Source of the DNA: Paracoccus homiensis
Lineage (GTDB): Bacteria > Pseudomonadota > Alphaproteobacteria > Rhodobacterales > Rhodobacteraceae
Assembly: GCF_900111675.1 (NCBI RefSeq)
Contig: NZ_FOHO01000006.1
Location: 124,001 to 188,000, forward strand
Direction: 5' to 3'
DNA length: 64,000 bases
The first letter of the stretch is position 1. Each line of letters opens with the position of its first letter. A program made the position numbers and the translations under genes. The notes under the pieces were generated by a model, which saw nothing but the letters and a program-made list of their open reading frames with translations, had not been told where the DNA came from and searched no databases. Positions 48,412 through 64,000 of this stretch are shown one piece after another.

Positions 48412-49165
48412 GATACTGACCCATCCCTTGCTGCAGGACACGCGCCACGGGTTCTTCACCCGCAAGGGCGGAGCCTCGTCGGGCCTGTTCGCGGGACTGA
48501 ATTGCGGTCGGCGGTCGACCGACCAAAGCGAGATGGTCGCCATAAACCGTGCCCGCGTGGCAGTGGCGATGGGCGTCGCACCCGAAGGTTTGGCGACGGT
48601 CAAGCAGATCCATTCTGCCGATGTGGTGACCTTGACCGATGGCGATGATGTGGTCGCGACCCGCGATATCGCAGCGGATGGTCTGGTCACGAACCGTCGC
48701 GATCTGGCGCTGGCCGTGCTGACCGCCGATTGTCAGCCGATCCTTCTGGCCGATAGCAGGGCCGGTGTGATCGGCGCCTGTCATGCCGGGTGGCGCGGCG
48801 CGCTTGGCGGCGTGATCGAGGCGACGGTGCAGGCGATGCAGACGCTTGGGGCGACGCAGATCAGGGCGGTGATCGGGCCGTCGATCAGCCAGCGCGCCTA
48901 TGAGGTCGGTCACGACTTCATGGAGGATTTTCTGGCCGAAGATCCCGATCATCACCGCTATTTCGCGGGCGGCCCGAACGGCAAGCCGATGTTCGATCTG
49001 CCATCCTTCGGATTGTCGCGCCTGCGCGACGCCGGGGTCGTGGCCGAATGGTCGCAGCATTGCACCTATTCCGATCCGGACCGCTTTTTCAGCTATCGCC
49101 GCGCGACGCATGAAGGCCAGGTTGATTACGGTCGCCTGATTTCTGCAATTTCTTTGCCCTCGTGA
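48395..49165 (+). CDS. pgeF: Purine nucleoside phosphorylase, YfiH/PgeF laccase-domain type
   Basis: The 256-residue protein has the conserved zinc/active-site residues of the YfiH family: KQIHSADVV (His), LTADCQPILLAD (Cys) and ACHAGWRGALGG (His). The family was once called multicopper laccase, but YfiH proteins are now thought to act on nucleosides or to correct peptidoglycan synthesis. Length is normal. It is coupled to midA. Downstream begins the AT-rich island. Confidence 0.92.
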   Translation: MQTTLEILTHPLLQDTRHGFFTRKGGASSGLFAGLNCGRRSTDQSEMVAINRARVAVAMGVAPEGLATVKQIHSADVVTLTDGDDVVATRDIAADGLVTNRRDLALAVLTADCQPILLADSRAGVIGACHAGWRGALGGVIEATVQAMQTLGATQIRAVIGPSISQRAYEVGHDFMEDFLAEDPDHHRYFAGGPNGKPMFDLPSFGLSRLRDAGVVAEWSQHCTYSDPDRFFSYRRATHEGQVDYGRLISAISLPS

Positions 49166-49280
49166 TTTACTATCTCAGGCATGGGTTGGTATTGCCGTTT
49201 GTTTATTAAACTATGGCGTGTATCACGCGGAAATAATTTCAATCCTTAATGGAAATTTGTTTGATTCTTCCTAGTTTTCG

Positions 49281-49309
49281 TTGACACGTTCTTGTGATTG
49301 ACGTTCCAT
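49281..49309 (+). promoter_or_regulatory. Candidate promoter of the VWA gene
   Basis: Perfect TTGACA (49281-49286) with a 17-base spacer to TTCCAT (49304-49309). It lies in the 205 bp AT-rich gap (49166-49370) between pgeF and the VWA gene; I count 44 G+C in 120 bases of 49201-49320. Confidence 0.4.
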
Positions 49310-49370
49310 GAATGGGCGATTTGGCTGGGCGGCCATGTTTTCGCTGATTTGGTATATTTGTGGAGTGTTA

Positions 49371-50252
49371 ATGATGAAACTAGGGACCTGGCTAAGTGCG
49401 GCAGTCATCGTCGTCGGAACGGCGTTCGGCGCCTCTGCCAAAACCGTCAACGATACGTCGAACGTGGTGTTCATCGTCGACGAATCCGGCTCGATGAGTG
49501 GCGAGCACAACTTTCTGAAAGACGTTGTCACATCGCTGGATTCGGCCTTGGCCGCGGCCGGGGTGACGACGCGCAGCTATGGGGTGGTCGGTTTCGGCGC
49601 AAGCTTCAGCAACCCCGGTTCGCCGCGAACGCTGACCGATTTCGTCAGCGCCGAAGACGCCAAGACCGCGATGTCCGGCCTGCGGCTGAACGGTGGCACC
49701 GAGGACGGCTATACCGGCATCAACCACGCGCTGGATAATCTAAGCTATGCCAGCGGAGCCGCGATCAACTATGTTCTGGTCACAGATGAGGACCGTGACA
49801 ATGTCGACAACGCGCTGACCTATGGATCGGTCTACAAGGACCTTGCCGATCGCAAGATCCTGCTGAACGCGGTGGTCAATGCGCGGTATAATTCGGATGG
49901 CGGTTACGCGCTGGGGATCGACAGCACCGGCGAGGCTTATGTGGCCGACGGCAGTGGTGGCTTCACCCGTTCGACCGGCGGCGTGGCTGTCAGCGGTTCG
50001 GGCACGACCATCAGCAATTATGTTCAGCTGGCATTGGATACGGGCGGCGCCGCATGGGACCTGAACCAGCTGCGCGCAGGCGGCAATACCGCGATGTCGT
50101 TCACTCAGGCCTTCCTGGATATCAAGGTCGAAGAAATCACCACCCAGCCGACCGACCCGAGCCCGGTTCCGGTTCCGGCAGCCTTCCCGCTGTTGCTGGG
50201 CGGTCTGGGCGTGATGGGCGCGATCGGTCGCCGTCGTCGCAAGAACAGCTAA
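49371..50252 (+). CDS. Secreted von Willebrand A protein with VPLPA/PEP-CTERM tail
   Basis: The 293-residue protein has a signal peptide (about 1-23, ending GASAK). The VWA domain (about 31-250) has a MIDAS start VDESGSMSG with D37, S39, S41, and ends with FTQAFLDIKVEEIT. A short Pro/Thr linker leads to the tail VPVPAAFPLLLGGLGVMG then a basic cluster RRRRKNS. This is the VPLPA-CTERM architecture: a Pro-rich recognition motif, a hydrophobic helix and a positive end, processed by a dedicated exosortase. ATG 49371 or 49374; GGAG at 49362-49365. No exosortase gene is in the window. A strong terminator follows. Confidence 0.88.
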   Translation: MMKLGTWLSAAVIVVGTAFGASAKTVNDTSNVVFIVDESGSMSGEHNFLKDVVTSLDSALAAAGVTTRSYGVVGFGASFSNPGSPRTLTDFVSAEDAKTAMSGLRLNGGTEDGYTGINHALDNLSYASGAAINYVLVTDEDRDNVDNALTYGSVYKDLADRKILLNAVVNARYNSDGGYALGIDSTGEAYVADGSGGFTRSTGGVAVSGSGTTISNYVQLALDTGGAAWDLNQLRAGGNTAMSFTQAFLDIKVEEITTQPTDPSPVPVPAAFPLLLGGLGVMGAIGRRRRKNS

Positions 50253-50306: not shown

Positions 50307-50960
50307 TTACGCCCGATTTTTGCGGCGGCGTGCGGCGAAGATCCCCATCGCGCCCAGCAACAGCGCGCCTGACGCTGGTACCGGGACAGATGAAACATCC
50401 CTGACCGACACCTCGTCGATCGTGAAGCTGGCAGTTCTGTTCCAGAAGTTAAATGACCCAATATCGGTGGTCAGATAGCTGCGATAGCCGAGGTTGAACA
50501 TATAGCTGAGGGTCTCGCCTTCCACCAATCCAGCATACAACGCTTTCGTATCGCCGGAACTCATCGAGATGTTTTCCTGGTCAGCTCGTACGTATTCGAA
50601 GGTGCAATTGCATTGGGTGCCGGCAAGAATCCACCACTTTGCCTTACCGCCGTTGCCGTAGTCGTTACCCCAGACGTCCGGCCCATCCGGGGTGTAAAGC
50701 TCTGCCGAAAAGCTGGTTTGATCGCCCGGGTTAAGCCTGGAGTTCAGAACCGGAAGACCATAGCTGTTTCCGTCTGCAAGGAAGAGGTCTTCGTCAACGT
50801 GGATGTCGTTGCGATCGTCGCCATAAATGGTTCCCTGTAATTCTGAATAGGTTGTCCCCAGATAGGTCAGCTTCAGATCATAGCGGTAGGTGGCTGCACT
50901 TGCCGGTGCGGCGGCGGCTGCGGTGATGGCCGCGGCTGCCAGGAATTGAAAAACCTTCAC
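50307..50960 (-). CDS. Secreted PEP-CTERM/VPLPA-type protein of unknown function
   Basis: The 217-residue protein has a signal peptide (about 1-22, ending ASAATYRYD) and a beta-rich body containing two adjacent Cys (TQCNCTFEY) and a repeated Tyr/Asn-rich texture. The tail SVPVPASGALLLGAMGIFAARRRKNRA (about 191-217) is a sorting signal of the PEP-CTERM class. The body resembles DUF or lectin-like PEP-CTERM proteins but I recognise no enzyme motif. GC content is lower than in neighbouring genes. It is convergent with the VWA-CTERM gene; a palindrome lies 32 bp upstream of the start. Confidence 0.8.
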   Translation of the reverse strand: MKVFQFLAAAAITAAAAAPASAATYRYDLKLTYLGTTYSELQGTIYGDDRNDIHVDEDLFLADGNSYGLPVLNSRLNPGDQTSFSAELYTPDGPDVWGNDYGNGGKAKWWILAGTQCNCTFEYVRADQENISMSSGDTKALYAGLVEGETLSYMFNLGYRSYLTTDIGSFNFWNRTASFTIDEVSVRDVSSVPVPASGALLLGAMGIFAARRRKNRA

Positions 50961-60986: not shown

Positions 60987-62288
60987 ATGTCCAGTCCCGC
61001 CCCGTTCTCGCGCTATGAATTCCTGATCGCCTGGCGTTACCTGCGTGCCCGCCGGGCCGAGGGTGGGGTCAGCGTGATGACATGGATCAGCCTGATCGGG
61101 ATCGCGCTGGGGGTGATGGCGCTGATCGCGACGCTGGCCGTGCGTGCCGGGTTTCGGGCCGAATTCGTCGATACGATCCTTGGCGCGAATGCCCATACCA
61201 GCGTCTACATGGCCCCGGACCGGTTCGAAAACGAACTGACTGGCGAGGTCTATGTCACGCCCGGCCGGATCGCCGATTATGATGCGATGGCGCAAAAGCT
61301 TGCCGATATCGACGGCGTGACGCGCACCGCGCCGGTCATTCGCGGGCAGGTCATGGCGACCGCGAACGATGCCTCGAACGTGGCCGAGGTCTATGGCATC
61401 CGTCTGGACGATTTGAAGGCGATTCCGCGTATCGTCGATCCTGAAACCTCGTCGGGCGAGATCGAGGATTTCGGCAGTGGCATTGCCATCGGCTCGGGCA
61501 TTGCGCGCGACCTGAACCTGCGCCTTGGCGACAAGCTGCGGCTGATCGCGCCGCAGGGGGCCAAGACCGCCTTTGGCACGACGCCGCGGGTCAATGCCTA
61601 TACCGTGACCTATGTGTTCAGCGCCGGACGCTATGACATCGACCAGACGCGCATCTACATGCCCCTGACCGAGGCCCAAAGCTATTTCAATCGCGAAGAT
61701 GTCGTCGACGAGATCGAGGTCTTTGTCAGCGATCCCGAAAAGGTCGATGACTGGACGCTGCCGCTGTTGCAGGCGGCCGGCGACCGCGCCCAGATCTGGA
61801 GCTGGCGCGACAGTTCCGGCAGCTTTCTTGCGGCGCTGGACATGGAGGATGACGTGATGTTCGTGATCCTGTCTGTCCTTGTGCTGATCGCGTCCATGAA
61901 CATCACCTCGGGGCTGATCATGCTGGTCAAGAACAAGGGCCGCGATATCGGCATTCTGCGCACCATGGGCCTGACCGAGGGCGCGGTGCTGCGCGTCTTC
62001 TTTCTGTGCGGGGCCTTCACGGGCATCATCGGGACCATCGCAGGCGTGATCCTTGGCGTGCTTCTGGCGTTGAATGTCGACAGTATCATGGCGCTGATCA
62101 ACAGCCTGACGGGCGGCAATGCCTGGCAGCCCGAAGTGCGCGGCATCTATCGTCTGCCCGCCGATCTGCGCGCCTGGGACGTGTTCCGCGCCGTGGCCCT
62201 GTCGCTGACCCTGTCCTTCGTGGTCACAATCTTCCCCGCGCGCCGCGCCGCGCGCATGAACCCCGTCGAGGCGCTGCGCTATGAATGA
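60987..62288 (+). CDS. Lipoprotein-releasing permease LolC/LolE
   Basis: The 433-residue inner-membrane protein has one N-terminal membrane helix (about 30-55), a large periplasmic domain and three C-terminal helices (about 290-420), the MacB/LolC fold. [14 protein letters not shown] at the N terminus and [15 protein letters not shown] at the end are typical. Alphaproteobacteria have a single LolC/E-type permease acting as a homodimer. The ATG at 60987 is preferred to a TTG two codons before. It overlaps lolD by 8 bp. Confidence 0.93.
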
Positions 62289-62952
62289 TGTTCTGCAACT
62301 GACCGGCGTGTCCAAGACCTATGGCAAGGGCGGCCCGGCCCCGGTCGAGGTTCTGTCCAGCATCGACCTGCGCGTCGCGCGGGGCGAGGTGGTGGCGCTG
62401 GTCGCGCCGTCCGGGGCGGGCAAATCGACGCTGCTGCATATCGCGGGGCTGTTGGACACACCCGATTCCGGGCAGGTTCTTCTGCGCGGGCGCGACATGA
62501 CCGGTTTGCCCGACAAGGCCCGGACCGAGGCGCGTCGCGCCGAACTGGGCTTCATCTATCAGTTCCACCATCTGCTGCCCGAATTCAGCGCCGCCGAGAA
62601 CATCGTGCTGCCGCAGCTTGCGAACGGCACCCCGGCCCGTGCGGCGCAGGCGCGTGCCGCCGATCTGCTGGATCGTGTCGGTCTGGGCCATCGCGCCGCC
62701 CACCGCCCGGCCGAACTGTCCGGAGGCGAACAACAGCGCGTGGCCTTCTGCCGCGCCCTTGCCAACGGCCCGGCGCTGCTTCTGGCCGATGAGCCGACCG
62801 GCAACCTTGATCCCGACACCTCAGACAGGGTGTTCGATGTGCTGATGGCGCTGGTCCGCGAAACCGGGCTGTCGGCGCTGATCGCGACACATAATCACGA
62901 CCTGGCTGCCCGGATGGATCGAGTGATCCGTCTGAAGGAAATTGTTGCCTGA
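62281..62952 (+). CDS. lolD: Lipoprotein-releasing ABC ATPase
   Basis: The 223-residue ATPase drives release of outer-membrane lipoproteins. Walker A is APSGAGKST, with Ala in place of the first Gly of the usual pattern; the signature is [15 protein letters not shown] and Walker [31 protein letters not shown] matches the LolD Q loop. It is coupled to the permease gene. The following cytochrome gene starts 57 bp later. Confidence 0.96.
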
Positions 62953-63009
62953 ACGACCTGAACCCGGCAACCTGCCGTCAAAAGCATTATGGTACCGGAG
63001 GGGGCTTGG

Positions 63010-63417
63010 ATGCGGGCAGTGGTGTTTTCTGGTCTGGGTGCGGTCACCCTTGCGGCGCTGATCGGGGCATGCGCGCCGGATGCGCAGGTGACGACCGCGC
63101 GCAGCGATTACAAGGAACTCTGCGTCGAATGCCACGGGCCGACCGGCAGGGGTGATGGCCCGCTGGCCCAGGGGCTGGACCCAAGACCCGCCGACATTAC
63201 CCAGGTCGCGGCGATGAATGGCGGCGTCTTTCCCAAGAACCGCGTCATGAGCCATATCTACGGCTTCACCCCCGGTCGCAGCGAAAGCCCGATGCCGCAA
63301 TTCGGCGATCTGCTGAACGGGCGCACGGTAATGTACGATTCCGGCGACGGCATCGAAACCCCGACCCCGTGGCGTCTTGTCGCGCTGATGGAATATGTCG
63401 AGGGGATGCAGGAATAG
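63010..63417 (+). CDS. Monoheme cytochrome c lipoprotein
   Basis: The 135-residue protein has a lipobox LIGAC (Cys about residue 21) after a hydrophobic signal, so it should be a membrane-anchored periplasmic lipoprotein. CVECHG is the heme-binding motif; the distal Met is probably the M of SPMPQFGDLL. Length and spacing match small c-type cytochromes such as those feeding cbb3 oxidase. GGAGGGGG (62997-63004) precedes ATG 63010. It lies after lolCD, whose products would sort it. Confidence 0.85.
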   Translation: MRAVVFSGLGAVTLAALIGACAPDAQVTTARSDYKELCVECHGPTGRGDGPLAQGLDPRPADITQVAAMNGGVFPKNRVMSHIYGFTPGRSESPMPQFGDLLNGRTVMYDSGDGIETPTPWRLVALMEYVEGMQE

Positions 63418-63424
63418 GTGCGAG

Positions 63425-64000
63425 TTGACTGATCGTTGCGGCGATGATGGTGCCGACGAGCGCAGCCGCAGAATCGTTGAGTCGCATCAGCCTGCGGTCG
63501 TCATGCCCGAGCAGGCAGAAGGCTTTACGCGGCTCCTCAAGTTTCTGAAATTTGAGTTGGTTCACATCCGCCTGAAATGGCGCGTGTATCAAGCGTTCTA
63601 CGGGACGAACACTGAAAGATTGGATTTGCTGAACAGTGTTTCCGGTACCACCGCAGTTATTATCCAAGATGCTTTGTATAACGACGTTATACTTAGCCTG
63701 TGTCGTCTAGGTGATCGTGCGAGCAGCAGGGGACGAGCCAATAACAGTTATAAGGCCCTTCTTGAGATGTTAGAGGAAGGTCCGCTAAAACTCCGACTTT
63801 CGGAACTCATTCGTGAATTTGGCGATATGTGCAAGCCTTTGATAAGTCGTAGGAACTGGTTCGTAGCGCATTCCGACCGCCGCGCAGTGTTCGATGGTGC
63901 CGGGGAAGGAGTGGTGTCAGGGCCCGAAGTGGACTCTGCGATAGAGGCAGCGCGATCGGTGCTGACCTTCATCTACTCAGAAATGTTCGACACAAGGATT
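63425..64000 (+). CDS. Partial HEPN/AbiU2-like protein at the right edge
   Basis: An open frame runs without a stop to the end of the window (it is truncated there). A TTG at 63425 or the ATG at 63503 could be the start. After 63503 the protein is helical and reads LNSVSGTTAVIIQDALYNDVILSLCRLGD, then RRNWFVAHSDRR, an R-x(4-6)-H motif characteristic of HEPN nucleases. The order of helices resembles the AbiU2 family of abortive-infection proteins. GC content is 46% by hand count over 63541-63840, far below the flanking cytochrome gene, and rare codons (AGA, ATA, CTA, TTA) are common. Horizontal acquisition is likely. The rest of the gene lies outside. Confidence 0.6.
   Translation, partial: MTDRCGDDGADERSRRIVESHQPAVVMPEQAEGFTRLLKFLKFELVHIRLKWRVYQAFYGTNTERLDLLNSVSGTTAVIIQDALYNDVILSLCRLGDRASSRGRANNSYKALLEMLEEGPLKLRLSELIREFGDMCKPLISRRNWFVAHSDRRAVFDGAGEGVVSGPEVDSAIEAARSVLTFIYSEMFDTRI

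Follow-up and report, generated by a model that had tools for sequence, protein, structure and literature searches.

A lone HEPN_AbiU2 gene in an exchangeable slot beside parE in Paracoccus

The window analysed here, a stretch of 64,000 nucleotides from Paracoccus homiensis (source assembly of 3.87 Mb in 39 contigs), ends inside a gene of low GC content. The question raised by this locus is whether that gene is the start of a rightward-extending defence or toxin locus, as the first-pass annotation proposed, or is complete in itself. The gene lies on the forward strand at 63503-64219 (1104-1820 in locus L002), with 63503-64000 in the window and its last 219 bases past the window edge. Its frame is open from 63395, the ATG at 63503 is the likeliest start, and the stop occupies 64217-64219. 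Within the 238-residue product, the sequence RNWFVAHSD (63851-63877, forward strand) supplies R117, H123 and D125. The R-x(4-6)-H pattern of HEPN proteins read there at the outset is present as an intact R-x5-H motif with a polar residue after the arginine (R117-N118-x4-H123). With 93.4 bits the protein scores far above the 26.8 bits that Pfam model HEPN_AbiU2, PF18734, requires (E 1.6e-26, computed on the 201 residues translated from 63395-63999), which bears out the family suggested from the motif. The same model matches all 14 aligned members of the lineage at E 0.01 or better, with a best value of 1.1e-27. No PADLOC model matches the protein, and searches against PHROGs, NCBIfam and PDB sequences returned nothing better than E 0.07. 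The window gene is thus a HEPN_AbiU2 family member with an intact motif, and the site that it occupies is unusually constant.

The composition of the gene was reported correctly from the first reading. Directly after the cytochrome gene upstream, itself 64.6% GC, the interval 63541-63840 has exactly the 139 G or C bases in 300 that had been claimed. Scanned in 300-base segments at a step of 20, the window has two regions at or below 48% GC, this one and another that begins at 49041-49221. Rare codons are likewise enriched, at 30 of 238 codons; the rare set comprises codons that are each below 0.3% in seven neighbouring genes, where the set as a whole makes up 1.6% of codons. In every one of the 19 copies measured, the HEPN gene has a lower GC content than the DNA that flanks it.

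The neighbours of the gene answer the question of an island. On the left, a c-type cytochrome-like lipoprotein gene (62989-63417, forward strand, stop at 63415-63417) has a CxxCH haem site by reading; its product has no Pfam match at 1e-5 and a weak NCBIfam cytochrome match (E 1.7e-4), and is matched in 65 of the 125 Paracoccus genomes. Upstream of it lies an ABC transporter ATPase gene (62281-62952, forward strand; ABC_tran E 1.5e-32), lolD-like by reading. On the right, the stop of parE (756.6 bits with TIGR01055, whose cut-off is 723.35) lies 4 bases from the HEPN stop, the two genes meeting tail to tail on opposite strands. The seven proteins tested beyond parE are a GST, an alpha/beta hydrolase, DUF1007, NicO and FixG-like proteins, a P-type ATPase and a D-Ala-D-Ala carboxypeptidase. 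PADLOC matches none of the nine neighbours tested, and ARAGORN finds no tRNA in the window or in 20 kb of L002. No antitoxin or AbiU-type partner gene adjoins the HEPN gene, which has 85 bases to the cytochrome stop and 4 to the parE stop, nor do mobile genes lie next to it. Clear direct repeats that could serve as insertion marks were absent, with only pairs of 10-13 bases present. A defence island directly to the right is ruled out by these flanking genes, the PADLOC result and the ordinary Pfam matches. Low GC and rare codons would suit the edge of a larger island or mobile element, but with parE 4 bases past the HEPN stop, seven housekeeping or metal and respiration proteins after it and no tRNA nearby, we give that reading next to no chance. 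Of the acquired locus first proposed, the foreign-looking composition stands, as does variable presence in relatives; its rightward continuation does not.

Using one genome per species, a protein search finds the lineage in eight of 125 Paracoccus genomes, namely the window genome and seven others at 57, 52, 34, 32, 29, 28 and 25% identity, so that most relatives lack the gene. All eight copies lie on the 3' side of parE and converge with it, even at 25% identity. The gap between the HEPN and parE stops is -4 in four genomes, 3, 4 (the window) and 30 in three others, and 556 in G124. In this last genome (L069), the stretch between the two genes, 46-560 bases after the parE stop, carries a gene for the antitoxin BrnA (E 1.4e-17) and a remnant of the toxin BrnT, which covers profile positions 1-23 only and scores below cut-off. 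The far-side neighbour is a cytochrome or PAP2 gene for three carriers and hemF for five (names checked by Pfam); because this neighbour differs, the HEPN gene keeps to parE and not to the gene on its other side. An apparent HEPN fragment in G123 (L063) was rejected, having entered its cluster through an out-of-frame reading of hemF. The Pfam family at large occurs in 14 of 125 Paracoccus genomes. The six further proteins (L161, L162, L164, L168, L169 and L173) belong to different subfamilies, with a weak lineage profile match or none, and no parE was found in their flanks of up to 1.5 kb, some of them cut by contig ends.

Outside the genus, profile searches of family, order and class samples of 394, 390 and 385 genomes found 14 genomes in all: five of 392 other-genus genomes in the family sample, eight in the order sample, one of them shared with the family sample, and two others in the class sample. 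In seven of the 14 the HEPN and parE stops are at most 94 bases apart (-4, 0, 1, 5, 6, 9 and 94), and in an eighth 1,176 bases separate them. Taken over all genomes with a lineage match, 14 of 22 copies fall within 94 bases of parE, and in five the stops overlap by 4 bases. No parE was found in the examined flanks of G601, G615, G709, G803 and G814. The frame in G369 runs into a contig end, and the copy in G709 (L188) is truncated and interrupted by an in-frame stop. The idea that the gene spreads on phages and plasmids was rejected: such records gave one phage and two plasmid matches, all below 30% identity at 60-66% coverage, and a pattern scan of viral contigs gave no confirmed relative. 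A literature search by titles and the opening lines of abstracts, with subscription literature mostly outside its scope, returned no account of an HEPN or AbiU2 gene tied to a position beside parE.

The space between the cytochrome and parE stops, 63418-64223 (806 bases, 63418-64000 in the window, no strand assigned), behaves as a replaceable slot. In comparisons of the window locus with G050, G078, G054 and G068, the sequences are homologous up to the parE stop and again from the cytochrome stop onward. G068 (L098) represents the empty site, with 51 bases between the stops as against 806. Each of the eight carriers was compared with its two nearest non-carriers, and three gave a clean swap: blastn similarity breaks off right where parE stops and returns with the following gene. 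G124, with HEPN and BrnTA in 1.34 kb, pairs with G107, which has other cargo in 0.93 kb, and the two then match at 94.5% over 4,659 bases. G031 and G060 pair with G040 and G018, whose slots both hold a ynfA-family gene, and match them beyond the slot at 93.8% over 5,275 bases and 86.4% over 5,271 bases, respectively. In all three pairs the last 200 bases of parE are 90-96% identical, and there is no blastn match inside the slot. For G064 the far-side match resumes only 1.3 kb out, and for G000, G035, G102 and G005 none was found against the two nearest non-carriers.

A census of 120 parE 3' flanks with seven probe genes shows how varied this site is. The nearest probe is PAP2 in 26 flanks, ChaC in 24, cytochrome in 11, hemF in 10, HEPN in seven and lolD in four, while 38 contain none; G085, G086 and G094, which lack a parE match at 1e-80, and also G103 were left out. 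By hand count, a ynfA-like gene directly follows parE in 25 Paracoccus genomes, in two pieces in two of them. A ynfA match of some kind is present in 78 of the 125 genomes, so this family also lives elsewhere. A 260-residue protein with membrane-like ends occurs in three of 125 genomes, each time in the slot. Low GC is also concentrated here. Among 117 flanks (the 120 plus the window locus, less four shorter than 700 bases), 11 first 600-base bins after parE are below 56% GC, compared with 25 of 903 further bins, and seven of those 11 hold something other than the HEPN gene. The frequency of such bins outward from parE runs 9.4, 8.6, 6.0, 2.7 and 0.9%, then 0-2.8%. The census, the swap pairs and the cargo together place different accessory genes at one position between core genes, as in a hotspot.

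Individual loci (L041-L160) show further occupants, including ChaC-family genes, a Trypsin_2 protein in G084 and low-GC unknowns in G015, G100, G107 and G114. About 1.1-2.7 kb after parE in G022 (L044) stand two similar low-GC proteins of 163 and 156 residues and a third small one. One of these low-GC proteins was searched against Pfam and had no match; as a guess, the row might represent repeated immunity-type genes.

Is the HEPN gene inherited at this site or brought to it? The AU test does not reject a single clade of Paracoccus HEPN proteins (p 0.289), so the trees give no proof of pure transfer. HEPN and parE identities correlate across 15 genomes (Mantel r 0.65, a value reached by 0 of 5,000 permutations), and also among Paracoccus genomes alone (r 0.39, p 0.037); G137 was dropped from this test for its short parE piece, and the G124 piece covers half the columns. 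The possible single clade and this correlation together mean that vertical inheritance with loss explains much of the pattern. Exchange is favoured by the swaps, by the low GC relative to flank in 19 copies, and by discord in G124, whose HEPN protein is closest to that of the window and whose parE, from a partial piece, is closest among carriers to those of the hemF-type genomes G060 and G102. The tree separates G601, G615 and G369, a clade with 100/100 support, from 16 parE-linked copies. Adding G814 and the weak G803 puts unlinked copies at two separate positions, so it is not firm that the link to parE arose only once. We read the HEPN gene as an old, fast-evolving lineage, often lost and sometimes exchanged at one address.

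The protein changes quickly around a conserved core. Pairwise identity among the eight Paracoccus copies is 23-56% in the tree alignment, and R117, H123 and D125 are invariant in all eight. Every one of 14 lineage members has the motif histidine and 11 have the arginine, which is replaced by S or V, with the histidine kept, in G614, G716 and G265. A C-terminal P-x-W-L has P and L invariant in the 14 and W in 13, with F in the other, and one further leucine is invariant. Values of dN are 0.39-0.55 in six HEPN pairs, with dS saturated in four; dN/dS is about 0.23-0.28 in the two pairs where dS can be estimated. A single AlphaFold job with five sequences gave, for the P. salsus copy, an all-helical model of poor confidence (mean pLDDT 59.6), and Foldseek with this low-confidence model gave no usable hit and no PDB match at E 0.001. 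For these reasons the assignment of the HEPN fold rests on the Pfam match.

The explanation we hold somewhat more probable than all others together is that of a single-gene cassette in an exchangeable core-gene slot, encoding a predicted solo RNase that would abort phage infection. The locus is a complete one-gene accessory cassette between the stops of convergent core genes, here the cytochrome c gene and parE. Close relatives differ in their slot contents by entire genes, with no mobile-element genes in those slots that were read, and the simplest route would be homologous recombination in the flanking core genes combined with vertical inheritance and loss. The protein would act as a dimeric, metal-independent RNase with R117 and H123 as its HEPN active site, silent until phage infection and then cleaving RNA so that the infection aborts. 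HEPN enzymes of other families are described as metal-independent RNases that use the motif histidine and, where tested, the arginine (PMC3710099). That a solo HEPN RNase aborts phage infection is the most likely function. A silent-until-triggered mode, by analogy with the staphylococcal protein Tha, would be the likeliest given the missing partner gene, the reported lack of toxicity of lactococcal AbiU2 alone in E. coli and the Tha precedent itself. Against this explanation stand the lack of a PADLOC model, the clean swap in only three of eight carriers and the loss of the motif arginine in three of 14 members; a literature search for phage, toxicity or RNase data on this lineage found none.

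Many HEPN proteins are toxins of toxin-antitoxin pairs, and the gene could be such a toxin, its antitoxin being an RNA or encoded elsewhere. AbiF offers a precedent, as one of the Abi proteins with an HEPN domain (PMC3710099) that has an RNA antitoxin (PMC12373285). The absence of an adjacent partner speaks against this, as do the lack of any Rfam match and of tandem repeats in 900-2000 of L002, searches that an unrepeated or unknown RNA would escape, and the report (PMC3985639) that lactococcal AbiU2 alone does not inhibit growth of E. coli; we regard a toxin as unlikely. That the gene is a decaying relic without function seems very improbable. Its presence is patchy and the copy in one other genus (L188) is broken, but the frame here is intact, motif R and H persist in all eight Paracoccus copies despite their divergence, and dN/dS is well below 1 where measurable.

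A functional tie to parE is improbable too, less so than a relic and more so than a toxin. An old resident gene might have its expression coupled to parE by the overlapping convergent 3' ends, or its product might guard topoisomerase IV. The 14 of 22 copies close to parE, the 4-base stop overlap in five of them and the position of 16 linked copies on one side of a 100/100 branch from three others all fit. So does a consensus scan that finds no terminator-like site between the genes (shuffles average 1.1); with only 4 bases between the stops, the HEPN and parE transcripts may overlap. A tie of this kind is hard to square with the 117 of 125 Paracoccus genomes that have no relative of the gene, with the unrelated genes that hold the same slot and with the unlinked copies in two tree places once G814 and G803 are added. 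The HEPN gene is not alone in keeping to the slot, because the 260-residue protein is also found only there. More speculative still, and given little credence, is a scheme in which a working link holds the lineage tail to tail with parE throughout an order: readthrough from parE would restrain HEPN as antisense RNA, and a phage that takes over the cell would release it by depriving the host of transcription or topoisomerase IV. If true, overlapping 3' ends would form an abortive-infection switch with a core gene as sensor.

Known systems resemble the proposed solo RNase cassette in part. With the HEPN_AbiU2 family of Anantharaman et al. (2013, PMC3710099) the protein shares the profile, the Rx4-6H motif and the polar residue after R. 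The AbiU2 operons that this paper lists contain Sel1-repeat or restriction-modification genes, whereas the Paracoccus gene is alone between core genes and its lineage keeps to parE. Lactococcal AbiU, made up of AbiU1 and AbiU2, shares family-level AbiU2 homology (PMC3985639), but comprises two genes where only one is present here. Tha, an HEPN anti-phage protein of S. aureus prophages, has RNase activity, loses protection in the H270A mutant and is triggered by a phage tail protein (PMC11087260). It is likewise an HEPN protein with an R-x-H motif and reportedly has no effect on growth when expressed free of phage. In contrast to the Paracoccus protein, it is prophage-borne, has 301 residues with a C-terminal HEPN domain, and its motif is R-x4-H, not R-x5-H. 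The slot recalls hotspots without mobile elements, where recombination takes place at flanking core genes (Oliveira et al. 2017, PMC5635113), in its variable cargo between core genes and lack of an integrase; unlike those hotspots, it holds mostly one or two genes, is bounded by stop codons, and varies across species, not strains.

On this evidence, a likely defence gene can be maintained and exchanged as a solitary insert, one gene long, next to a core gene. Such inserts escape searches for islands or for signatures of mobile elements, as well as PADLOC models. The 3' end of parE provides a fixed address at which to seek more uncharacterised accessory genes of Rhodobacterales. With pairs such as G031/G040 and G124/G107, exchange can be tested directly.

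A separate observation concerns the other low-GC region of the window. Near it, two proteins encoded at 49308-50252 (forward strand) and 50307-50960 (reverse strand) have C-terminal tails of the form VPVPA...LLLG...RRRKN, which we take to be similar to VPLPA/PEP-CTERM sorting tails.
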